Positions 212 through 9,630 of a stretch of DNA of 9,734 bases are shown one piece after another. The stretch's first letter is position 1. Each line of letters opens with the position of its first letter. Source of the stretch: Hyphomicrobiales bacterium (lineage in GTDB: Bacteria > Pseudomonadota > Alphaproteobacteria > Rhizobiales > Aestuariivirgaceae). The stretch covers positions 1 through 9,734 of the forward strand of contig JALUFY010000291.1 of NCBI GenBank assembly GCA_027051995.1. Reading direction: 5' to 3'. The notes under the pieces are model-generated. The model searched no databases and was not told the origin of the DNA. It saw only the letters and a list, made by a program, of their open reading frames with translations. Position numbers and translations under genes: made by a program.

Positions 212-604
212 GTGAAACTTGGAATTGTGGTGAACGAGGGGCCCTATACCCACGAAGCGTCCGACACCGCCTACAACTTCGCGGTGGCGGCGCTGGAGAA
301 AGGGCACGAGATCTACCGGATCTTCTTTTATCATGACGGCGTCAACAACGCGACGCGGCTGACCGTGCCGCCGCAGGACGACCGCAACATCCAGCAGAAA
401 TGGACCGAGCTTCAGGAGAAGCACGATCTCGATCTGGTGGTCTGCATCGCCGCCGCCCAGAGGCGCGGCATTCTGGACGAGAACGAGATGAAGCGGCAGG
501 GCAAGGACGCCTACAACATCGCGCCGGGCTTCCGCATTTCCGGCCTTGGCCAGCTCATCGAGGCGGGCATTCAGTGCGACCGCCTGGTGACGTTCGGCGA
601 CTAA
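212..604 (+). CDS. dsrE: DsrE, sulfurtransferase subunit of DsrE2E2F2H2
   Basis: The protein has 130 residues and belongs to the DsrE/TusD family. It is the catalytic subunit of the cytoplasmic heterohexamer (two each of DsrE, DsrF and DsrH) that receives sulfane sulfur from a carrier (TusA or rhodanese route) and hands it to DsrC. The family's active cysteine is at residue 78 in the segment LDLVVCIAAAQRRG, the same number as the catalytic Cys78 known for Allochromatium vinosum DsrE. The N-terminus MKLGIVVNEGPYTHE is typical of the family. The start is GTG, preceded by AGGGGAAG at about 198-205 with a 6-nt spacer; no upstream in-frame start fits better. A second cysteine (Cys122, near the C-terminus) is present. 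dsrF follows after 22 nt, so the two are probably co-translated. Identification is secure. Confidence 0.97.
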   Translation: MKLGIVVNEGPYTHEASDTAYNFAVAALEKGHEIYRIFFYHDGVNNATRLTVPPQDDRNIQQKWTELQEKHDLDLVVCIAAAQRRGILDENEMKRQGKDAYNIAPGFRISGLGQLIEAGIQCDRLVTFGD

Positions 605-626
605 TCGAGAGACAGGGGAAAACGGA

Positions 627-1037
627 ATGTCTGAAGGCGTTAAAAAATTTCTTTACGTCAACCGGAAAGCGCCGCACGGCACCATCTATGCGCTCGAGGC
701 GCTGGAAGTGGTGCTGATCGGCGCGGCGTTCGAGCAGGACGTGGAGCTGGCCTTTCTGGATGACGGCGTCTTCCAGCTGGTGAAGGGCTGGGACACGAAG
801 GATCTGGGGTCGAAGAACTTCGCGCCGACCTACATGGCGCTGGGGGACTTCGAGGTGACCAAGGTCTTCGTCGAGAAGGAATCGCTCGACGAGCGCGGGC
901 TGACCGCGGACGACCTGATGGAGCTCATGTACGAGGACGAGGATGACGACTGGGCCGAGAAGCCTTCCATCCGCATCGTCTCGCGTGAGGAAATGGCCAG
1001 GATCATGGCCGCGAACGACGTTATCCTGAGCTTCTGA
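627..1037 (+). CDS. dsrF: DsrF, subunit of the DsrE2E2F2H2 sulfur relay
   Basis: This 136-residue protein is of the DsrF/TusC family and is the structural partner of DsrE and DsrH in the sulfur-transfer hexamer. The N-terminal stretch VKKFLYVNRKAPHGTIYALE, the central FLDDGVFQL and the APTYMALGDFE segment are characteristic. The ATG start has a CAGGGGAA ribosome site at 613-620. The translated protein contains no cysteine at all: position 40, which I recall as cysteine in A. vinosum DsrF, is Glu here. This fits a non-catalytic role, since the cysteines shown to matter are in DsrE and DsrH. An acidic run EDEDDD lies near residues 103-108. dsrH starts 15 nt downstream. Confidence 0.96.
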   Translation: MSEGVKKFLYVNRKAPHGTIYALEALEVVLIGAAFEQDVELAFLDDGVFQLVKGWDTKDLGSKNFAPTYMALGDFEVTKVFVEKESLDERGLTADDLMELMYEDEDDDWAEKPSIRIVSREEMARIMAANDVILSF

Positions 1038-1044
1038 GGGAGGG
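1036..1044 (+). promoter_or_regulatory. Ribosome binding site that fixes the dsrH start at ATG 1053
   Basis: The run GAGGGAGGG overlaps the dsrF stop and ends where the longest reading frame would start (GTG 1044). That GTG is therefore too close to be served by it, while the ATG at 1053 has a workable spacer of about 8-9 nt. Starting at 1053 also puts the conserved cysteine at residue 20, as in known DsrH. Confidence 0.75.
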
Positions 1045-1052
1045 TGCGCGAA

Positions 1053-1358
1053 ATGGCCATGTTGCATACCGTGAACAAGTCGCCTTATGAAAAGAGCGCG
1101 CTTGAGAGCTGCCTGAACCATGTCAGCGAGGGCGATACCGTCCTGCTGATCGAGGATGGCGTCTATGCCGTCGTCAAGGGCGGCCGCGCCGCCAACGCGC
1201 TGGCGTCCGTCAAGGGCGTGAAGATCGCCGCTCTCGAAGCGGATCTGAAGGCGCGCGGAATTGGCGGAGACAAGATCACCGAGGGCGTCGAGGTCGTCGA
1301 TTACGGCGGCTTCGTCGATCTGGTGGAAGCCAACGACAAGACCGAAGCCTGGCTGTAA
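1053..1358 (+). CDS. dsrH: DsrH, subunit of the DsrE2E2F2H2 sulfur relay
   Basis: The protein has 101 residues from ATG 1053 and belongs to the DsrH/TusB family. With DsrE and DsrF it forms the cytoplasmic hexamer that relays sulfur to DsrC. It begins MAMLHTVNKSPYEKSALESC, and the cysteine in that run is residue 20, matching the conserved Cys20 of A. vinosum DsrH. The segment VLLIEDGVYAVVKG near residues 30-45 is also typical. A longer frame from GTG 1044 would add three residues, but the ribosome site and the Cys numbering argue against it. An 80-nt gap with a weak hairpin separates it from dsrC. Confidence 0.95.
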   Translation: MAMLHTVNKSPYEKSALESCLNHVSEGDTVLLIEDGVYAVVKGGRAANALASVKGVKIAALEADLKARGIGGDKITEGVEVVDYGGFVDLVEANDKTEAWL

Positions 1359-1381
1359 GGCCTGGCGGGGTGAAAACAGTT

Positions 1382-1406
1382 TCCGGGGCCGGGACGCGGC
1401 GCCGGA
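1382..1406 (+). promoter_or_regulatory. Weak hairpin between dsrH and dsrC
   Basis: Bases 1382-1390 can pair with 1398-1406: five pairs, one G/G mismatch, three pairs, and a 7-nt loop. It lies in the 80-nt gap before dsrC, about 17 nt ahead of that gene's ribosome site. A chance fold is possible in GC-rich DNA. I saw no convincing -35/-10 pair here, although dsrC in some sulfur oxidisers has its own promoter. Confidence 0.35.
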
Positions 1407-1438
1407 TGCAAGAGTAAATCAAGAGGAGAGGCTGAAAA

Positions 1439-1771
1439 ATGGCTTACGATGTGAACGGCACGACGGTCGAGCATGACGAAGAGGGCTACATCACCAACCT
1501 GAGCGACTGGACCAAGGAGCTCGCCGAGGTGATCGCCAAGGAAGAGAATGTGGAGATGACCGACGAGCACTGGGAGGTGGTGAACTTCCTGCGCGAGTAT
1601 TATGACGAATACCAGATCGCCCCGGCCATCCGCGTGCTGGTGAAGGCCATGAAGAAGAAGTTCGGCCCGGAGAAGGGCAACAACAAGTATCTCTACGAGC
1701 TGTTCCCCTACGGCCCGGCCAAGCAGGCGTGCAAGATCGCCGGCCTGCCGAAGCCGACGGGCTGCGTCTGA
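1439..1771 (+). CDS. dsrC: DsrC, sulfur-carrier protein and substrate of DsrAB
   Basis: This 110-residue DsrC/TusE-family protein is a true DsrC. It ends in KQACKIAGLPKPTGCV, with both cysteines of the flexible C-terminal arm: the penultimate Cys109 and Cys98 ten residues before the last-but-one arm position. TusE-like relatives lack the first of these. In the oxidative pathway DsrC accepts persulfide sulfur from DsrEFH, delivers it to DsrAB, and forms a trisulfide or disulfide handled by DsrMKJOP. The FLREYYDEYQIAPAIRVLVKAM segment and the KGNNKYLYELFPYGP segment are classic. The ATG start has GAGGAG at 1423-1428 with a 10-nt spacer. A strong hairpin follows 28 nt after the stop, which may protect or separate this normally abundant message. 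Confidence 0.98.
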   Translation: MAYDVNGTTVEHDEEGYITNLSDWTKELAEVIAKEENVEMTDEHWEVVNFLREYYDEYQIAPAIRVLVKAMKKKFGPEKGNNKYLYELFPYGPAKQACKIAGLPKPTGCV

Positions 1772-1799
1772 TCCCAGTCAGCGAAAAGCACTGAAAACG

Positions 1800-1825
1800 G
1801 GCGGGTCCGGTCCGCCGGGCCCGCC
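1800..1825 (+). promoter_or_regulatory. Strong hairpin with UCCG loop between dsrC and dsrM
   Basis: Bases 1800-1810 pair with 1815-1825 over 11 bp (ten Watson-Crick pairs, one G-U), closed by TCCG, a member of the UNCG tetraloop class. No T-run follows (TTGATC), so a full intrinsic terminator is unlikely. The position after dsrC suggests attenuation before the membrane genes or 3'-end protection of dsrC message; that function is inferred. Confidence 0.8.
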
Positions 1826-1835
1826 TTGATCAACC

Positions 1836-1843
1836 GGGAGGGG
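1836..1843 (+). promoter_or_regulatory. Ribosome binding site that fixes the dsrM start at GTG 1850
   Basis: GGGAGGGG lies six bases before GTG 1850. The longest open frame would begin at TTG 1826, directly at the foot of the hairpin and with no ribosome site, so the GTG is preferred. Confidence 0.8.
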
Positions 1844-1849
1844 AAACAG

Positions 1850-2602
1850 GTGATCACTGTTCTCTATGCGCTGTTGTATTATGTGGCGTTCATCGTCTTC
1901 GCCGCCGGCGTAGCCTATCGCGTCTGGGGATACTGGAAGACGCCCGCGCCCGCCGTCATTCCGACGACTCCGGCGCCGGTGACGCGCACGGGCGTTGTCT
2001 GGCGCATGTTCAAGGAAGTGGCGTTTTTCGAATCCTTGTGGAAATCCAACAAGTGGATCTGGATTTTCGCCATGATGTTTCACCTGTCCCTGTGGCTCAT
2101 CCTGATCCGCCACGCGCGCTATTTCGTGCAGCCCGTTCCCACGCTGATCACCCTGGCGCAGCCCTTCGGGAAATACGCCGGCATCTTCTTCGTGCTCGGC
2201 GGGCTGGGCCTGTTCGCGCGGCGCATTCTCGTTTCCCGCGTGCGCTACATCTCCAGCCCCTCGGACTATCTGATGCTGCTGATGTTCATCCTGATCGGCT
2301 TTTCCGGCCTGATGATGACCTTCGTCAACAAACCCGACGTGGTTGGCGTGAAGGCTTTCTTCCTGGGGCTGATGACCTTCAACTGGCAGCCGCTGCCCAC
2401 GGACTTCGGCGTGCTCGTGCATCTGGGTCTGGTGGCGCTGTTCCTGATCATCTTCCCGTTCTCCAAGCTGGTGCACGCGCCCGGCGTGTTCTTCTCGCCG
2501 ACGCGCAACATGGTGGACAACCCGCGTGAGAAGTTCCACCCGGTGCCGTGGCTGCCCAGCATCGATGAAGTGGTTTACGACGAGCCGCCGGGCAAGAAAT
2601 AG
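1850..2602 (+). CDS. dsrM: DsrM, membrane cytochrome b subunit of DsrMKJOP
   Basis: The protein has 250 residues from GTG 1850 and belongs to the NarI-like respiratory gamma-subunit family. It spans the cytoplasmic membrane, binds heme b, and links the quinone pool to DsrK. Five hydrophobic segments are visible at about residues 3-24, 69-88, 107-124, 139-158 and 187-205. Candidate heme-ligand histidines are His78 and His88 near the second segment and His191 and His209 around the fifth. It has the short form usual in sulfur oxidisers. The C-terminus is hydrophilic and proline-rich (FHPVPWLPSIDEVVYDEPPGKK) and presumably cytoplasmic. A 50-nt gap leads to dsrK. Confidence 0.95.
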   Translation: MITVLYALLYYVAFIVFAAGVAYRVWGYWKTPAPAVIPTTPAPVTRTGVVWRMFKEVAFFESLWKSNKWIWIFAMMFHLSLWLILIRHARYFVQPVPTLITLAQPFGKYAGIFFVLGGLGLFARRILVSRVRYISSPSDYLMLLMFILIGFSGLMMTFVNKPDVVGVKAFFLGLMTFNWQPLPTDFGVLVHLGLVALFLIIFPFSKLVHAPGVFFSPTRNMVDNPREKFHPVPWLPSIDEVVYDEPPGKK

Positions 2603-2652
2603 CCCCACAGACGCTCAACGAGAGACAATGACAGATTTGGCGGGAGAGTACC

Positions 2653-4230
2653 GTGGCTGAGGAAGAAAAAGTCGTCGAGGAGCTGACCACGCAGGAGGCC
2701 CTGACCGATCCCCTTTACGTGCCCGAGCCCGTGGATGGCGCGGCGGCGCATATCAAGTCCTTTCCGGCGGCTCCGGAATTTCAGGAGAAGCTGGGCTATC
2801 CGGGCGAGCGGCCCGACAACTGGCAGGAAGTGGCGCTCAACAAGATGCAGGACTTGCGCGGCAAGTTCCGCTCGTTCCGCCTGTTCCTCGACATCTGCGT
2901 GAAGTGCGGCGCATGCACCGACAAGTGCCACTACTTCATGGGCACCGCCGATCCGAAGAACATGCCGGTGGCGCGCGCCGATCTGATCCGCTCGGTCTAC
3001 CGGCGCTACTTCACCCTGCCGGGCAAGTGGTTCCCCTCGCTGGTGGGGGCGCGCGAGCTGACAGAAGAGGTGCTGGACGAGTGGTACACCTACTACTTCC
3101 AGTGCTCCGAATGCCGCCGCTGTTCGGTCTACTGCCCCTACGGAATCGACACCGCCGAGATCACCATGGCGGCGCGCGAGATTCTCGACTCCGTCGGCGT
3201 CGGCATGAAATACACCAACGAGATCATCGGCAAGGTCTATGACATCGGCAACAACCTGGGCCTTCAGGCCCCGGCGCTGAAAGCGACGATGGAAGATCTC
3301 GAGGAGGAAATCGAGGAAGATACCGGCGTGAAGGTGCGCATCCCGGTGGACGAGCCGGCCGATATCCTGCTCATTCCGCCGTCGGCCGACTTTTTCGCCG
3401 AGCCGCACATCGACGGCTTCATCGGCTACGCAAAGGTGTTTCACGCCGCGGGCGTGAAGTGGACGATCAGCACCTACGCCTCCGAGGCGGCCAACTTCGC
3501 CATGTTCATCGGCTCCTACGAGAACATGCGCAGGATCGCCCAGCGAATCCGCCGCGAGGCCATCCGGCTGGGTGTGAAGCGCATCATCATCGGCGAGTGC
3601 GGGCATGCCTGGCGCGCCGCCTATCAGTTCCTCAACACGCTGGCCGGGCCGTTCGACTTCCTCGATCCCAATTATCCGGTGCCGCAGCATATCTGCGAAT
3701 TCACCTGGGATCTCATCCAGGAAGGCAAGCTGCGGTTCGACAAGTCGCAGAACGATCACCTGACGCTGACGTTCCACGATTCGTGCAACGTGGCGCGCGC
3801 CTCCAGGATGGGCAAGTATCCCGGCGGGCAGTTCGACATTCCGCGCAACATCATCAAGGCGGTGTGCAACAACTACTACGACATGCCCGAGGACACCATC
3901 AAGGAGGCCACGCTGTGCTGCGGCGGCGGCGGCGGCCTGCTGACCGATGACCTGATGGAGCTGCGCAAGAAGGGTGGCAGCCCGCGCATGAAGGCGCTCA
4001 AGCAGGTGACGGAGGAATACGGCGTCAACAAGATGGCCGCCATCTGCGCCATCTGCAAGACGCAGTTCTCCAAGATCATGCCCTACAACGGCTACGCCAT
4101 GGACGACATCATGTCCGTGCATCAGCTGGTGTCCAACGCCATCGTCCTGCCCGGCTCGGAGCAGGAGGCGGAGCTGGACGGAACGGCGGATGAATCCGGC
4201 GACAGCGAGCAGGCAAAAGAAGACGCGTAA
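2653..4230 (+). CDS. dsrK: DsrK, HdrD-like iron-sulfur catalytic subunit of DsrMKJOP
   Basis: The protein has 525 residues and is related to heterodisulfide reductase subunit HdrD. It is the cytoplasmic subunit that exchanges electrons with DsrM and is thought to act on DsrC disulfide or trisulfide. Two [4Fe-4S] motifs are seen: Cys82/85/88/92 and Cys151/154/157/161. The C-terminal CCG-type region has Cys378 in HDSCNVARASRMGK, Cys422/423 in LCCGGGGGL and Cys465/468 in ICAICK, the layout that binds the special non-cubane catalytic cluster. Cys316 in GECGHAW is a further candidate. The acidic N-terminus (AEEEKVVEE) and the tail after about residue 500 are low-complexity. The start is GTG 2653, with GGGAG at 2642-2646 and a 6-nt spacer. 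Identification is secure. Confidence 0.97.
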   Translation: MAEEEKVVEELTTQEALTDPLYVPEPVDGAAAHIKSFPAAPEFQEKLGYPGERPDNWQEVALNKMQDLRGKFRSFRLFLDICVKCGACTDKCHYFMGTADPKNMPVARADLIRSVYRRYFTLPGKWFPSLVGARELTEEVLDEWYTYYFQCSECRRCSVYCPYGIDTAEITMAAREILDSVGVGMKYTNEIIGKVYDIGNNLGLQAPALKATMEDLEEEIEEDTGVKVRIPVDEPADILLIPPSADFFAEPHIDGFIGYAKVFHAAGVKWTISTYASEAANFAMFIGSYENMRRIAQRIRREAIRLGVKRIIIGECGHAWRAAYQFLNTLAGPFDFLDPNYPVPQHICEFTWDLIQEGKLRFDKSQNDHLTLTFHDSCNVARASRMGKYPGGQFDIPRNIIKAVCNNYYDMPEDTIKEATLCCGGGGGLLTDDLMELRKKGGSPRMKALKQVTEEYGVNKMAAICAICKTQFSKIMPYNGYAMDDIMSVHQLVSNAIVLPGSEQEAELDGTADESGDSEQAKEDA

Positions 4231-4248
4231 ACCTTTTCGAGCAACGCC

Positions 4249-4276
4249 GCCTGCCGCGGCCAAGGCCGGCGCAGGC
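4249..4276 (+). promoter_or_regulatory. Imperfect hairpin between dsrK and dsrL
   Basis: Bases 4249-4254 pair with 4271-4276, and 4257-4260 pair with 4265-4268, around a 2x2 internal mismatch and a small loop at 4261-4264. It ends just before the dsrL ribosome site (GGAGGG, 4281-4286). There is no T-run. It could affect dsrL translation or mark a processing point; chance pairing in GC-rich DNA cannot be ruled out. Confidence 0.45.
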
Positions 4277-4292
4277 AGATGGAGGGAAATCA

Positions 4293-6239
4293 ATGACCGA
4301 CAACAAGACCGAGGGAAAGAACTTTCGCCGCTTCAAGCCGGGGGTGACGCCCGACGACTGGGATCTGGAAGAGAAGATCTTCAAGGCGGATCATTCCTAC
4401 AAGTGCCCGACCTACATCGTGAAGACGCCGCCGTGCTCGGCGTCGTGCCCGTCCGGCCATGACATCCGCGGCTGGCTGGCCATCGCGCGCGGCATGGACA
4501 AGCCGGCGAAGGAGGGGCAGCCCTGGCAGGAATACGCCTTCGAGCGCATGACGAAGGCCAATCCCTTCCCCGGCGTGATGGGGCGCGTGTGCCCGGCTCC
4601 GTGCCAGGAAGGCTGCAACCGCAACGTGGTGGACGATTTCGTCGGCATCAACGCCCTGGAGCACTATGTCGGCGACTGGGCGGCGGAGAACGACGTCAAA
4701 TTCACCATTCCCTCCGAATCCACCGGCAAGAAGGTGGCGGTCATCGGCGCCGGGCCGGGCGGCATGGCCATGGCCTATTTCCTGCGCAAGAAGGGTCATG
4801 CGGTGACCATCTTCGACGAGCACGAGAAGCTGGGCGGCATGATGCGCTATGGCATCCCGACCTACCGCGTGCCGCGCGACAAGCTGGATCAGGAAATCCA
4901 GCGCATTCTCGACATGGGCGTGGAGGTGAAGACCAATACCCGCGTCGGCCGCGACGTCTCCGTGGAGGAGCTGGAGCGCGACTATGACGCCATCTACTGG
5001 GCCATCGGCGCGCAGAAGGGGCGCGGTTTGCCGATCCCCGGCTGGCAGGGCACAGAGAACTGCATCACAGGCGTGGAGTTTCTGGAAGCCTTCAACCAGG
5101 GCTGGGTCTATGGCACCGCCAAGCGCATCATCGTGGTGGGCGGCGGCGACACCTCCATTGACGTGGCCTCTGTGGCGCGCCGCCTGGGCCATATCGCCGA
5201 GGTGAAATCCGTTGACAACATCGACGGCAAGATCAGCGGCTTCACCGCCGAGGACGTGGCCGGCATCCTCAAGCGCGAGGGCGTCAAGGCGGTTCTGACC
5301 TCGCTGTTCGAGATCGACGAGATGTTCGCCGCCAAGCACGAGCGCGACGAGGCCATGCGCGAGGGCGTGGAGATCAAGGGCGGCATCATGCCGCTGGAGG
5401 TGGTGAAGGACGAAAACGGCCGCGCCACGGGCCTGAAGATGTGCAAGTGCACCATGGACGGCATGACGCCCATCCCCGTCGAGGGCACCGAGTTCGTGCT
5501 GGAAGGCGACATCATCGTCTCGGCCATCGGCCAGTCCGGCGACTTCGAGGGCTTCGAGGACATGGCCAACGAGCGCGGCTTCATGGACACCGACGCCTAT
5601 TTCCGCGTGTCGGGCAAGGAGAAGCATTTCGCCGGCGGCGACATCATCCGCCCGCATCTGCTGACCACGGCCATCGGGCACGCGCGCATCGCCGCCGACG
5701 AGATCGATTTCTTCCTCTCCGGCGAGGAGCTGGCCAAGCGGCCGAAGGTGGATGTGGCGCACTTCAACCTGCTGGCGGAGCTGAACCAGCGCGGCCGGGA
5801 TTTGCAGCCCTATGACGGCACGCAGACGCTGGGCACCTCCAGCGCCGATTGGGCGGTGCACAACTTCGAGGACCGCTCGAGCAAGGACGTGATTACCCAC
5901 GAGGAGATGTTCCTCGGCCACTTCACCGAGCAGCCGCGGGCCATCCGCGAGGAAATTCCGGTGGACGCCGATCATGTGCTGGGCAACTTCCAGGAGCGCA
6001 TCAAGCCGCTGACCGAGGAGCAGGCCAGATACGAGGGCGAGCGCTGCATGAGCTGCGGGCTGTGCTTCGAGTGCGACAACTGCGTGATCTTCTGCCCGCA
6101 GGACGCGGTGCACAGGGTCAAGAAGGACGAGCGCGCCGTTGGCCGGTATGTCTTTACCGACTACAGCAGGTGCGTCGGCTGTCACATCTGCTCCGATGTC
6201 TGCCCGACGGGCTACATCAAGATGGGACTTGGGCAGTAA
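4293..6239 (+). CDS. dsrL: DsrL, NAD(P)H-binding iron-sulfur flavoprotein partner of DsrAB
   Basis: The protein has 648 residues and resembles the small subunit of glutamate synthase (GltD/NfnB type). In sulfur oxidisers DsrL binds DsrAB and passes the electrons from sulfur oxidation to NAD(P)+. The N-terminal dicluster region carries Cys38, 48, 52, 100, 104 and 108. An FAD-binding Rossmann motif follows (VIGAGPGGMAMAYFLRKKG, about residues 150-168), then a nucleotide-binding motif (VVGGGDTSIDVASVARRLG, about 281-299). The C-terminus is a ferredoxin domain with Cys585/588/591/594/597/601 and Cys627/630/633/637. Where many NADPH-using relatives have Tyr-Arg-Arg, about 24 residues after the GGGDT start, this protein reads VDN (307-309); I infer a preference for NAD+/NADH. 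ATG 4293 has GGAGGG 12 nt upstream. Confidence 0.97.
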   Translation: MTDNKTEGKNFRRFKPGVTPDDWDLEEKIFKADHSYKCPTYIVKTPPCSASCPSGHDIRGWLAIARGMDKPAKEGQPWQEYAFERMTKANPFPGVMGRVCPAPCQEGCNRNVVDDFVGINALEHYVGDWAAENDVKFTIPSESTGKKVAVIGAGPGGMAMAYFLRKKGHAVTIFDEHEKLGGMMRYGIPTYRVPRDKLDQEIQRILDMGVEVKTNTRVGRDVSVEELERDYDAIYWAIGAQKGRGLPIPGWQGTENCITGVEFLEAFNQGWVYGTAKRIIVVGGGDTSIDVASVARRLGHIAEVKSVDNIDGKISGFTAEDVAGILKREGVKAVLTSLFEIDEMFAAKHERDEAMREGVEIKGGIMPLEVVKDENGRATGLKMCKCTMDGMTPIPVEGTEFVLEGDIIVSAIGQSGDFEGFEDMANERGFMDTDAYFRVSGKEKHFAGGDIIRPHLLTTAIGHARIAADEIDFFLSGEELAKRPKVDVAHFNLLAELNQRGRDLQPYDGTQTLGTSSADWAVHNFEDRSSKDVITHEEMFLGHFTEQPRAIREEIPVDADHVLGNFQERIKPLTEEQARYEGERCMSCGLCFECDNCVIFCPQDAVHRVKKDERAVGRYVFTDYSRCVGCHICSDVCPTGYIKMGLGQ

Positions 6240-6261
6240 CCTTCAACCACGGGCGGACGCC

Positions 6262-6732
6262 ATGATTTCGAGGCTGACACAACTCGTTTCCGTCTTCGCC
6301 GCCGCCGCCGTGCTCGTTCTGGGCGCGGCGGGGGCCCAGGCGGGCGGAATCGCGCCGAAGGTGATCATTGACAAGAGCAAGGGCGAGTGTGTGCTTCCGG
6401 CGGAGCAGATGAAGCGCCAGCACATGAAGATCCTCAAGCACCGGCGTGACGCAACCATGTATCAGGGGGTGCGTGGCGGCAAGAGGTCGTTGCAGGCCTG
6501 TCTGAGCTGTCATGCCGTGAAGGGGGATGACGGAAAACCCGTGACCATCAAATCGGAAAAGCACTTCTGCCGCACCTGCCACGACTACGTGGCGGTCAGG
6601 CCCGACTGCTGGGATTGTCATGTCTCGGTGCCGGACAAGGCGGCGGGGCGGGCGGCCCTGAAGCACCGCGCCGGGACGATGCGCGCGGAGGCGTCCGGAC
6701 TGATCAAATACCTTGAGGGAGGCAGGAAATGA
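6262..6732 (+). CDS. dsrJ: DsrJ, periplasmic triheme cytochrome c of DsrMKJOP
   Basis: The protein has 156 residues from ATG 6262. The N-terminus is a Sec signal (Arg4, hydrophobic stretch about 7-23, AQA at 25-27); in A. vinosum this segment is reported to stay as an anchor, and here an AQA/GG site could be cut. Three heme c motifs are seen: CLSCH (80-84), CRTCH (103-107) and CWDCH (116-120). Cys43 in KGECVLP lies outside these motifs and matches the conserved cysteine proposed as distal ligand of the unusual His/Cys-coordinated heme. His54, His60 and His101 are other possible ligands. A longer open frame from 6139 overlaps dsrL and lacks a signal at its start, so ATG 6262 is chosen. Its stop overlaps the dsrO start (ATGA). 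Confidence 0.96.
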   Translation: MISRLTQLVSVFAAAAVLVLGAAGAQAGGIAPKVIIDKSKGECVLPAEQMKRQHMKILKHRRDATMYQGVRGGKRSLQACLSCHAVKGDDGKPVTIKSEKHFCRTCHDYVAVRPDCWDCHVSVPDKAAGRAALKHRAGTMRAEASGLIKYLEGGRK

Positions 6733-7475
6733 CCAGTCATTCTCCCGATACCCGCGTTGACGAGGCGCGCCGCGAATTCATGAAGAAATCGGCGGCGGCG
6801 GGCGTCATCGCGCTGGCGCCCGGCGTGACGCTGATGACCATGAGCAGCGAGGCGGCGGCCAAGGCCGATCCGAAAAAGCGCTGGGGCATGCTGATCGACA
6901 CCACCGTGTGCAAGAGCGGCTGCGACAAGTGCGTGGCCGCCTGCAAGGCGGAAAACGGCTGGGAGGCCAAGGCGGGCTCGCCCACCGATCCGCAATGGAT
7001 CCGCAAGGTGGACGTGAAGGATCCGAAGACCGGCTTCGCCATGTCGCTGCCGGTCATGTGCCAGCATTGCGCCAATCCGCCCTGCGTGGACGTGTGCCCG
7101 ACGGGCGCGTCGATGAAGCGGGCCGACGGCATCGTGCTGGTCAACCGGCATATCTGCATCGGCTGCCGCTACTGCATGATGGCCTGCCCCTACAAGGCGC
7201 GCTCCTTCGAGCATCACGAGGTTCCGGAAGAGGAGAAGGCCCCCTGGGCGCCGCGCGGACAGGGCACGGTGGAAGCCTGCACCATGTGCGTGCACCGGGT
7301 GGACGCGGGCGGGATTCCGGCCTGTGCCGAGGCCTGCGACAAGGGCGCGATCCTGTTCGGCGATCTGAACGACCCGGATTCGGATATCTCCAAGCGGCTC
7401 GCCAGCGGGCCATCCTATCAGATCCGCGCCGATCTGGGCGCTGATCCGGGCGTGCGCTACGCACGGCTGCCTTGA
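6729..7475 (+). CDS. dsrO: DsrO, Tat-exported ferredoxin subunit of DsrMKJOP
   Basis: The protein has 248 residues. The twin-arginine motif ARREFMKK (residues 13-20) and a hydrophobic stretch (about 21-37) direct folded export; cleavage could fall near residues 43-46. Sixteen cysteines are arranged for four [4Fe-4S] clusters: 61/65/68/72, 111/114/119/123, 143/146/149/153 and 184/187/199/203, as in the NrfC/DmsB-like ferredoxins. It is thought to carry electrons between periplasmic DsrJ and membrane DsrP. The ATG overlaps the dsrJ stop by 4 bp, which implies translational coupling. The ribosome site lies inside dsrJ (GAGGGAGG, 6716-6723). Confidence 0.97.
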   Translation: MTSHSPDTRVDEARREFMKKSAAAGVIALAPGVTLMTMSSEAAAKADPKKRWGMLIDTTVCKSGCDKCVAACKAENGWEAKAGSPTDPQWIRKVDVKDPKTGFAMSLPVMCQHCANPPCVDVCPTGASMKRADGIVLVNRHICIGCRYCMMACPYKARSFEHHEVPEEEKAPWAPRGQGTVEACTMCVHRVDAGGIPACAEACDKGAILFGDLNDPDSDISKRLASGPSYQIRADLGADPGVRYARLP

Positions 7476-7498
7476 GCGAGAGAGGGAGAGAGACGACG

Positions 7499-8746
7499 AT
7501 GAAGCGGATTCACTATTCCCTGCTTGAGGGGCGCGTGGGCTATTACGCCACGCTCGCCATTCTGGGCGCCATCGCGGGCGCGGGCGTGCTGGCCGCGTGG
7601 TACATGGAGCATCACGGGCACATCGTGACGGGCATGACCAACCAGATCGTCTGGGGCATGCCGCATGTCTTCGCCGTGTTTCTGATCGTGGCGGCCTCCG
7701 GCGTGCTCAACGTGGCCTCCATCGGCACGGTGTTCAACAAGACGCCCTACAAGCCGCTGGGGCGGCTTTCGGCGATCATGGCCATGGCCGTGCTGGCCGG
7801 CGGCCTGACCGCCCTGGTGCTTGATCTCGGCCGCCCGGACAGGCTGATCGTCGCCATGACGAAATACAATTTCAAGTCGATTTTCGCCTGGAACATCTAT
7901 CTCTACAACGGCTTCTTCGCCGTGGTGCTGCTCTATCTCTACACGCAGATGTCGAGCAAGTTCCAGGTGCGCCGCTACTACAAGGCGGCGGGCACGCTGG
8001 CCTTCGTCTGGCGGCTCATCCTGACCACCGGCACGGGCTCCATCTTCGGCTGGCTGGTGGCCCGTCAGGGGTATGATCTGGCCATCTACGCGCCGATGTT
8101 CATCGCCCTGTCGTTCTCCTTCGGCCTGGCGTTCTTCCTGATCATGCTGATCTCGCTCTACCGGCTGACGGAGCGGCCGCTGGGCAACGGGCTGATCAAC
8201 CGCGCCGGGCGTCTGCTGGGCGTCTTCGTGGCGGCGGCGTTCTATTTCGTCGCGGTGCAGCATCTGACGAACTTCTACGCGGCGGAGCATCAGGGCGTGG
8301 AGCATTTCCTGCTGTTCGGCGGCAATGTCTATTCCTTCCTGTTCTGGGCCGGGTTCGTGCTTGTTGGCACCATTATTCCCTTCGTCATGGTGTTTTCAAA
8401 ATCGGCGAAGACCAGCATGAAGCCGGTGTTCATCGCCTCGCTGCTGGTGGTTCTTGGCGGGCTCAGCCTGATTTACGTCATCATCATCGGCGGGCAGGCC
8501 TATCCGCTGGTGCTGTTCCCCGGCAAGGAGGTTTCCAGCTCGTTCTTCGAGGGGATGATCAATCCCTATACGCCGAGCTTCCCGGAGATCGTGCTGGGCG
8601 CGTCGGGTTTCGCCATCGCGGCGCTGATTACGGTGCTGGCCACCAAGGTGCTGCCGCTGATGCCCAAATCCCTGGCCGACGCGGATGTCGATCCGCATCT
8701 GGTGATCAAGGACGCCGATGTCGTGGAGATGAAAAAGGCCGCCTGA
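7499..8746 (+). CDS. dsrP: DsrP, NrfD-like integral membrane subunit of DsrMKJOP
   Basis: The protein has 415 residues from ATG 7499 and belongs to the NrfD/PsrC family. About ten hydrophobic spans are seen, for example around residues 15-36, 54-75, 90-110, 131-149, 165-185, 197-220, 238-256, 276-299, 309-331 and 363-383. It is thought to exchange electrons between DsrO and the quinone pool. Family-like features include LDLGRPDR (108-115) and the Asn and Trp in IFAWNIYLYNGFF (128-140). The longest frame begins at TTG 7472 inside dsrO, but GAGGGAGAG at 7482-7490 serves ATG 7499. The C-terminus after about residue 390 is hydrophilic. It is the last gene before a strong terminator. Confidence 0.96.
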   Translation: MKRIHYSLLEGRVGYYATLAILGAIAGAGVLAAWYMEHHGHIVTGMTNQIVWGMPHVFAVFLIVAASGVLNVASIGTVFNKTPYKPLGRLSAIMAMAVLAGGLTALVLDLGRPDRLIVAMTKYNFKSIFAWNIYLYNGFFAVVLLYLYTQMSSKFQVRRYYKAAGTLAFVWRLILTTGTGSIFGWLVARQGYDLAIYAPMFIALSFSFGLAFFLIMLISLYRLTERPLGNGLINRAGRLLGVFVAAAFYFVAVQHLTNFYAAEHQGVEHFLLFGGNVYSFLFWAGFVLVGTIIPFVMVFSKSAKTSMKPVFIASLLVVLGGLSLIYVIIIGGQAYPLVLFPGKEVSSSFFEGMINPYTPSFPEIVLGASGFAIAALITVLATKVLPLMPKSLADADVDPHLVIKDADVVEMKKAA

Positions 8747-8767: not shown

Positions 8768-8800
8768 AAGGGCCCGCACCCGTTGCGGGCCCTTTTTCTT
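8768..8800 (+). terminator. Intrinsic terminator of the main dsr operon
   Basis: Bases 8768-8778 pair perfectly with 8784-8794 (11 bp) around a 5-nt loop CCCGT. The T-run starts within the right arm and continues TTTTTCTT at 8793-8800. It begins 22 nt after the dsrP stop. It is the only hairpin in the window with a clear U-tract and probably ends most transcripts. Confidence 0.93.
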
Positions 8801-8890: not shown

Positions 8891-8920
8891 TTGAGACGCG
8901 ACCATGAACGCATGGATAAT
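8891..8920 (+). promoter_or_regulatory. Sigma70-type promoter for the DUF4202-dsrN unit
   Basis: TTGAGA (8891-8896) and GATAAT (8915-8920) are separated by 18 bases and each match the consensus at five of six positions. Transcription would start near 8927, giving a leader of about 65 nt. The position between a strong terminator and the next gene supports it. The spacer holds a dyad, CCATG-N4-CATGG (8902-8915), whose last base is the first base of the -10 box. Confidence 0.65.
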
Positions 8921-8991: not shown

Positions 8992-9630
8992 GTGACGGAG
9001 AGATTGCGCAAGGTTCTGGCGGATATCGATGCGGCCAACGCCGATGATCCGCGCCGGGATGTTCTCGATGGCGTGGAGATGCCTTTCGAGCAGGTCTATT
9101 CGCGCCGTCTTCTGGCGCGGCTCGAGGCGATGTATCCGGACGCGCCGGAGGTGCTGAAGGCTGCGGCCTATGGCCAGCATCTGCGGCGCTTCGATGTTGC
9201 GCGCGCCTCTTATCCCGCCGGGCGCAAGGGTTACAACGCCTGGCGCAAGGCCTGCCGGGAGCATCACGCCAAGGTGCTCGGCAAAATCATGGCGCGGCAT
9301 GGCTTTCCGGATGAGGATGTCGCCGTGGCGCAACGGCTGGTGCGCAAGCAGGCGCTGAAAAGGGACAGGCTCTCGCAGGCTCTGGAAAACGCCGTGGACG
9401 TGGTTTTCATCGAACATTACCTGCAACCGTTCGTGGACAAGTATGCGGATTATGACGAAGACAAGCTGGTGGATATTCTGGCCAAGACGCTGCTGAAGAT
9501 GTCGCCCAAGGGGCACCGGGCCGCGCTGGCGCTGGATTTGCCGGAGGCGCACCGGGCGCTTCTGGAAAAGGCCCTGGCGCGGGAAAAGGATAAAATCGCG
9601 CAACTGGCGTCCGGCGCGCCGGACTGGTAA
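8992..9630 (+). CDS. DUF4202-family protein of unknown function
   Basis: The protein has 212 residues from GTG 8992. It resembles the uncharacterised DUF4202 family (some members misnamed as glutamyl-tRNA synthetase) along its whole length: DIDAANADDP (11-20), the GQHLRRF motif (61-67), YPAGRKGYNAWR (74-85), HHAKVLGKIM (91-100), DVVFIEHYLQPF (136-147) and DKLVDILAKTLLKMSPKGHRAALAL (about 157-181). No signal peptide or membrane segment is seen, so it should be cytoplasmic. The spread of His63, His91/92 and Asp136 is faintly like an all-helical metal-binding (HD-like) fold, but that is a guess. An open frame runs further up to 8935, yet the ribosome site and family start point to 8992. It is separated from dsrP by a terminator and a promoter, and dsrN follows after 35 nt, so it is probably co-transcribed with siroheme amidation. 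Its function is unknown. Confidence 0.85.
   Translation: MTERLRKVLADIDAANADDPRRDVLDGVEMPFEQVYSRRLLARLEAMYPDAPEVLKAAAYGQHLRRFDVARASYPAGRKGYNAWRKACREHHAKVLGKIMARHGFPDEDVAVAQRLVRKQALKRDRLSQALENAVDVVFIEHYLQPFVDKYADYDEDKLVDILAKTLLKMSPKGHRAALALDLPEAHRALLEKALAREKDKIAQLASGAPDW

Follow-up and report, generated by a model that had tools for sequence, protein, structure and literature searches.

The window, the 9,734-nucleotide stretch of DNA analysed here, is an entire contig of a draft genome and carries on its plus strand a dsr operon running from dsrE to dsrP, followed by a DUF4202 gene and the first codons of dsrN. A protein of the closest group (P0010) carries the name Thermopetrobacter, an alphaproteobacterium, and the organism probably belongs there. 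The operon opens with dsrE, F, H, C, M, K, L and J (212..6732), of which dsrE was recognised by Pfam and the others bear names assigned by order and size; dsrO (6729..7475), encoding a 4Fe-4S protein, and dsrP (7472..8746), of the NrfD family, were recognised by Pfam. The frame at 8992..9630 has a GTG start, encodes 212 amino acids and matches PF13875 (DUF4202) with 188.1 bits, against a cut-off of 35.1, over residues 7–190. Its stop is followed after 35 nt by the ATG (9666) of dsrN, the gene of a siroheme-amidating enzyme, which was named from the sequence and from copies in relatives and is truncated by the contig end (9666..9734). The initial annotation had described a DUF4202 gene between the dsr operon and dsrN, 35 nt before the latter, and the Pfam match and the gap read from the sequence confirm it. 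An intrinsic-terminator-like hairpin with a T tail (8768..8794, plus strand) lies 3' of dsrP, between the dsr operon and DUF4202-dsrN, and a sigma-70-like promoter site (TTGAGA-18-GATAAT, 8891..8920, plus strand) lies 5' of the latter pair; the promoter site is a consensus match only, and the hairpin is a consensus match with similar hairpins in relatives. Two terminator-like sites were found in the region against 1.2 expected from shuffles, and one sigma-70-like site against 0.2 expected. Judged by sequence, the two elements look like the marks of a separate DUF4202-dsrN unit that would adjoin the dsr operon rather than lie inside it.

The arrangement recurs within the genus. A dsrN match adjoins DUF4202 in all nine other genus genomes that carry DUF4202, some of these matches being cut by the end of the stretch; dsrP lies on the other side in eight of the nine, while the contig of the remaining one, G001, breaks off some 540 nt upstream. 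Of the genus genomes searched, only G010 gave no DUF4202, and its dsr contig stops in dsrL, so that the end of the locus is not covered. Across eight relatives and the window, the gap between dsrP and DUF4202 is 98–345 nt, a terminator-like hairpin follows dsrP in eight of nine loci (a count made without a shuffle control), and 15–43 nt separate dsrN from the DUF4202 stop in seven of nine, measured to the first aligned dsrN residue in the relatives and to the start codon in the window. The sole full dsrN copy scanned, that of L047, encodes an a,c-diamide synthase of the CobB/CfbB type; in one published account, DsrN is considered necessary for amidation of DsrAB siroheme (PMC10504309). In addition, dsrA and cysG share a contig and are no more than 4 kb apart in 7/7 genus genomes compared, and thus genes of siroheme supply flank the dsr locus.

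Genomic distribution and neighbours of DUF4202

Outside the genus the link to dsr is not maintained. Among 299 Pseudomonadota genomes, DUF4202 is found in 19 (17 with DUF4202 proper, the two others, G095 and G131, having distant HD proteins), dsrA above its cut-off in 51, and both in four, where 3.2 would be expected. Both genes occur in 12 members of a set of 40 near relatives in which the window's own genome is counted, 10 of these 12 being the genus, and among six dsrA-positive relatives outside it DUF4202 is present in two, both times on a contig other than that of dsrA. A dsr-specific role was rejected on this co-occurrence, and the suggestion that DUF4202 serves in control of sulfur oxidation finds no support.

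A scan of genome contigs gave at least 570 DUF4202 relatives, and 80 named loci were fetched with flanks of at most 8 kb, in which five siroheme families were counted: SUMT, precorrin-2 dehydrogenase (PC2DH), CbiX, NIR_SIR and NirD. A siroheme-pathway or siroheme-reductase gene lies in the flank of 32 of the 80 loci, which span several phyla, and in none of the 60 controls, 17-kb stretches that come from 13 DUF4202-positive genomes of one phylum and were hand-picked at round coordinates. The reference sequences for this count were all drawn from DUF4202 loci; the same references do detect cysG in three regions holding one. When the loci are thinned to below 70% identity, 18 of 49 retain a siroheme neighbour (p 7e-8), and at below 60% this is so for 10 of 27. 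None of the five families is found near the remaining 48 of the 80 loci, and in five more loci the sulfate-activation genes sat/cysQ alone lie near DUF4202 (one of each checked). Among 22 further non-genus loci from a first phylum-wide look, four have a siroheme gene, CbiX in every case, and 18 have none. The neighbourhoods uphold an association of DUF4202 with siroheme genes, and the part of the expectation that tied it to dsr is not supported.

The arrangement met most often, with 11 named loci from Bacteroidota, is NirB-NirD-DUF4202-sensor kinase; the order cobA-sirC-DUF4202 is found in L119 and L149, and in L089 DUF4202 and cobA abut with a gap of zero. Identity was checked on examples of NirB, NirD, SUMT, PC2DH, NirA, CbiX, Sat and CysQ, and the names of sensor, regulator, transporter and nitrate-reductase neighbours are presumptive, given by similarity. 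Gene calling yielded no DUF4202 frame in three loci, L094 and also L050 and L060, both of which do contain the gene. A CbiX chelatase domain and an AsmA-family protein share one frame directly 3' of DUF4202 in L073 (3846–6917, checked), and L074 and L075 were assigned the same arrangement by cluster. The DUF4202 frame of L156 (G496) contains one TAG stop.

Co-occurrence over whole genomes, with p-values that ignore kinship between genomes, points in the same direction as the neighbourhoods. Among 178 genomes of the Bacteroidota class to which Algoriphagus aquimarinus belongs, DUF4202 occurs in 10 and NIR_SIR in 45, and all 10 fall within the 45 (p 5e-7); DUF4202 is carried by 7/8 genomes of this class with a NirB-length frame, NirB having been recognised there by frame length (836–851 aa) and not by a NirB model. 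In Pseudomonadota, NirB is present in 15/17 DUF4202-positive genomes and in 35 of 63 negative ones, sampled at even steps from 139 complete negative genomes (p 0.02). The two NirB-less positives, G229 and G308, carry dsrA, as we remarked post hoc, and in the comparison framed on that remark 'NirB or dsrA' is present in 17/17 positives against 36/63 negatives. The window's own genome also has NirB, so DUF4202 may serve both. The reverse relation does not hold: DUF4202 is absent from 35 of the 45 NIR_SIR-positive genomes of the Algoriphagus class, and from 260 of the 279 Pseudomonadota genomes (of 299) that have a siroheme reductase. With so many siroheme-reductase genomes lacking it, DUF4202 is dispensable for siroheme enzymes.

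Fusion proteins and predicted fold

DUF4202 is also found joined to other domains. When the DUF4202 portion of a fusion protein served as query, 84 proteins were listed, of which 36 have a CbiX domain, a class favoured by the choice of a CbiX fusion for the search; other partners are PAPS reductase (CysH) in four, and PC2DH, a siroheme-decarboxylase-like AsnC domain, Crp and cytochrome b in one each. A few further singleton fusions are listed that may be annotation errors, and single-copy fusions in general may be errors of gene calling. Fusions to siroheme or sulfite-pathway enzymes make up 42/84. When ten fusion candidates were scanned, a second family was found in six (PC2DH, AsnC-like, PAPS reductase twice in both orders, cytochrome b and Crp), and DUF4202 alone in the remaining four. 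The CbiX-DUF4202 fusion was confirmed in L003. The solved chain 4ccs_A, named CBIX, is matched by the neighbouring chelatase of L037 (E 5.7e-51) and by the fusion P0121 (E 3.3e-22); we take 4ccs to be the Paracoccus ferrochelatase of the CbiX type (PMC4063343). In P0163 DUF4202 is fused to PC2DH, and in P0186 (542 aa) it is joined to two siroheme-decarboxylase-like parts; the decarboxylase-like part gives sub-threshold matches to AhbB and AhbA, and one of E 2e-10 to 4ch7, a NirD-like protein of solved structure. A fungal protein, P0193 (named for Colletotrichum karsti), combines DUF4202 with cytochrome-b5 and FMN-dehydrogenase domains, and is possibly a gene-model error. From the linkage to dsrN, DUF4202 had been proposed to serve in maturation of siroheme or of sulfite reductase; neighbourhoods, co-occurrence and fusions all point to siroheme, in a wider form than was claimed.

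The predicted structure of the window protein is helical, without a Rossmann domain, and has the fold of the HD superfamily, its best structural match being 2pq7, a predicted HD hydrolase; the earlier guess of an HD-like fold thus holds at the level of the model. Foldseek returned no match under E 0.001, a PDB sequence search with the single protein as query gave two matches (E 0.19 and 0.29), neither convincing, and a PDB profile search gave none at E up to 1, nor did the bridge protein L034 have a match. The positions that we take to be the HD metal ligands (H, H, D and D in the bridge proteins) align with Y36, Q62, H63 and V135 of the window protein, and in the 24 DUF4202 rows of A1 they are Y (23, with one H), Q (24), H (24) and V/A/I/T. 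The H...HD...D ligand set of a metal-dependent HD phosphohydrolase is thus not found, that candidate was rejected with all four ligand positions replaced, and DUF4202 is probably no HD hydrolase. L034 and L035 are HD-domain proteins that score above the DUF4202 cut-off, and the Pfam model hence reaches into true HD proteins.

Across 55 sequences 25 positions are strictly invariant, and 18 of them are charged, polar, Tyr or Trp (D13, D19, E33, Y36, R39, Q62, H63, R66, R71, Y81, W84, R85, K119, Q129, E132, K158, T166 and K169), seven being Arg or Lys. The initial annotation had singled out the motifs QHLRRF, HH and DVVFIEHY as conserved; Q62, H63 and R66 of the first and F139 of the last are indeed invariant in the 55, but H92 (one H of HH) and V138 of DVVFIEHY reach 96%, and the motifs are thus conserved in part.

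Proposed siroheme hand-over and its alternatives

The partners of DUF4202 differ with the route by which siroheme is made. Of the 11 distinct genomes in which CbiX is joined to DUF4202 or lies close to it, one has a PC2DH that scores above its cut-off, versus 51 of 68 other handles (p 5e-5), G024 and G346, with identical coordinates, being counted as one genome. The 80 genomes surveyed (50 of the 80 named loci and 30 numbered genomes) include many drafts in which an absence may be a gap, and 52 of them have PC2DH above the cut-off. PC2DH lies beside or near DUF4202 in G351, G370, G377 and G386; G370 has a weak match to CbiX (E 6e-4) and the other three have none; L050 and L060 hold no CbiX. 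In Stappia (G379, L138) DUF4202 and CbiX lie 25 nt apart despite a CysG-length siroheme synthase in the genome, which makes this the only genome to break the partner rule. With CbiX linkage where PC2DH is absent and PC2DH linkage elsewhere, DUF4202 appears to accompany whichever enzyme makes siroheme, or one that uses it. Since it is fused to the chelatase in one group and to the dehydrogenase in another, DUF4202 is unlikely to perform either step, which leaves siroheme, the product, as the common factor. The chelatase was rejected as a candidate on its fusion to DUF4202 and on the 35/45 NIR_SIR-positive genomes of the Algoriphagus class that have no DUF4202.

These findings are consistent with the idea, which we favour while giving it somewhat less than an even chance, that DUF4202 hands siroheme over from the enzyme that finishes it to the reductase or modifying enzyme. 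The donor would be a finishing enzyme of either the CbiX type or the Met8/CysG type, and the recipient would be the user of the cofactor. Siroheme has eight carboxylates, and the seven invariant Arg/Lys residues could hold them. In this genus the recipients would be DsrN, which would amidate the siroheme, and DsrAB; outside the genus DUF4202 does not always keep such company: it is located with NirBD, cobA/sirC, the CbiX chelatase or sulfate-activation genes. Judged from context, fusions and co-occurrence, DUF4202 is a candidate siroheme-binding protein that would transfer its ligand to apo-reductase, and such a hand-over would be the best among several candidate mechanisms. Against it speak the 48 of 80 named loci and the 18 of 22 further ones with no siroheme gene close by, the many siroheme-reductase genomes that do without DUF4202, and the wealth of invariant polar residues, which an enzyme might equally have.

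An enzymatic function, which the initial annotation had thought possible in preference to a scaffold, for example a modification or repair step on siroheme or on a reductase in a remodelled HD pocket, is unlikely in our estimation. It would account for the 18 invariant charged, polar, Tyr or Trp residues and for fusions with several catalytic partners, but the four HD metal-ligand positions are replaced and DUF4202 is not known to contain a cofactor motif.

A quite improbable reading makes DUF4202 the missing precorrin-2 oxidising enzyme of the CbiX route, redundant elsewhere. A recognised PC2DH is absent from 10 of the 11 distinct genomes with CbiX-linked DUF4202, and outside family f44 of the phylum sample a hand count finds DUF4202 in 8/41 NIR_SIR-positive genomes without PC2DH against 9/167 with it (p 0.007), PC2DH having been scored on ten candidates per genome; the other 33 of the 41, however, do without DUF4202. 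In f44 itself, 0/71 NIR_SIR-positive genomes have a PC2DH above the TIGR01470 cut-off. One study describes a Paracoccus genome without an obvious PC2DH candidate, but also reports that CbiX alone rescued E. coli with cobA but without dehydrogenase and chelatase (PMC4063343). Furthermore, PC2DH coexists with DUF4202 in those 52/80 genomes, on which a simple replacement of PC2DH was rejected (this reading being retained as a rival), P0163 fuses the two, and the DUF4202 model is helical and lacks a Rossmann domain. The window protein has no match to PC2DH (SirC/Met8/CysG-N; PF13241 / TIGR01470), and a PC2DH domain is absent among the 25 families shown, of 35, for 55 DUF4202 members of A3.

We strongly doubt, too, a sensory or regulatory role for DUF4202 in nitrogen/sulfur metabolism, with the state of siroheme or nitrate as its signal: its gene shares 4 nt with that of a Crp-type regulator in G011, G012 and G018, is fused to Crp in P0176 and lies beside sensor-kinase genes in Bacteroidota, but that single regulator fusion compares with 42/84 to siroheme or sulfite-pathway enzymes, and Pfam finds no DNA-binding or signalling domain in the window protein. 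Finally, it is very unlikely that DUF4202 is merely carried along in this genus with an incidental adjacency to dsrN, as might be argued from dsr loci in which dsrN directly follows dsrP (G229) or a presumed TrpD-like gene, so named by similarity, sits between dsrP and dsrN in place of DUF4202 (G017, G022, G031 and G035, the last with a second gene; loci L042, L043, L044 and L045), for dsrN is beside DUF4202 in 9/9 other genus genomes with the gene and the siroheme link recurs across several phyla.

Significance and relation to known systems

Returning to hand-over of siroheme by DUF4202, its broadest version is the more doubtful one: on genomic grounds the family might be the first dedicated siroheme escort, a former HD protein ranging from Bacteroidota to fungi that would bring siroheme to NirB, to DsrN/DsrAB or to a siroheme decarboxylase. 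DUF4202 or PF13875 is named in no open-access paper found, and siroheme delivery, chaperone, transfer, trafficking or carrier are phrases found in none, though print beyond open access may differ. Siroheme synthesis is reviewed in PMC7242693, and in a CysG structure paper the passages with transfer- or channel-type terms do not concern siroheme hand-over (PMC7018833). How siroheme, once finished, reaches the nitrite and sulfite reductases is thus not covered under these phrases in the open-access literature searched, and a family that is fused both to makers and to users of the cofactor is a concrete candidate for the hand-over step; with at least 570 relatives, re-annotation of many 'unknown' genes would be warranted.

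Among known systems, DUF4202 shares its predicted fold with the HD domain superfamily (PF01966; 2pq7) but not the metal ligands, and no HD phosphohydrolase site is expected. DsrN and other CbiA-type amidases are its neighbours in this genus, although the window DUF4202 itself matches no amidase family. The window protein likewise has no CbiX match and is mainly helical in its model, whereas the CbiX-type sirohydrochlorin ferrochelatase (Paracoccus; 4ccs) belongs to the same pathway and is fused to DUF4202 or adjoins it.
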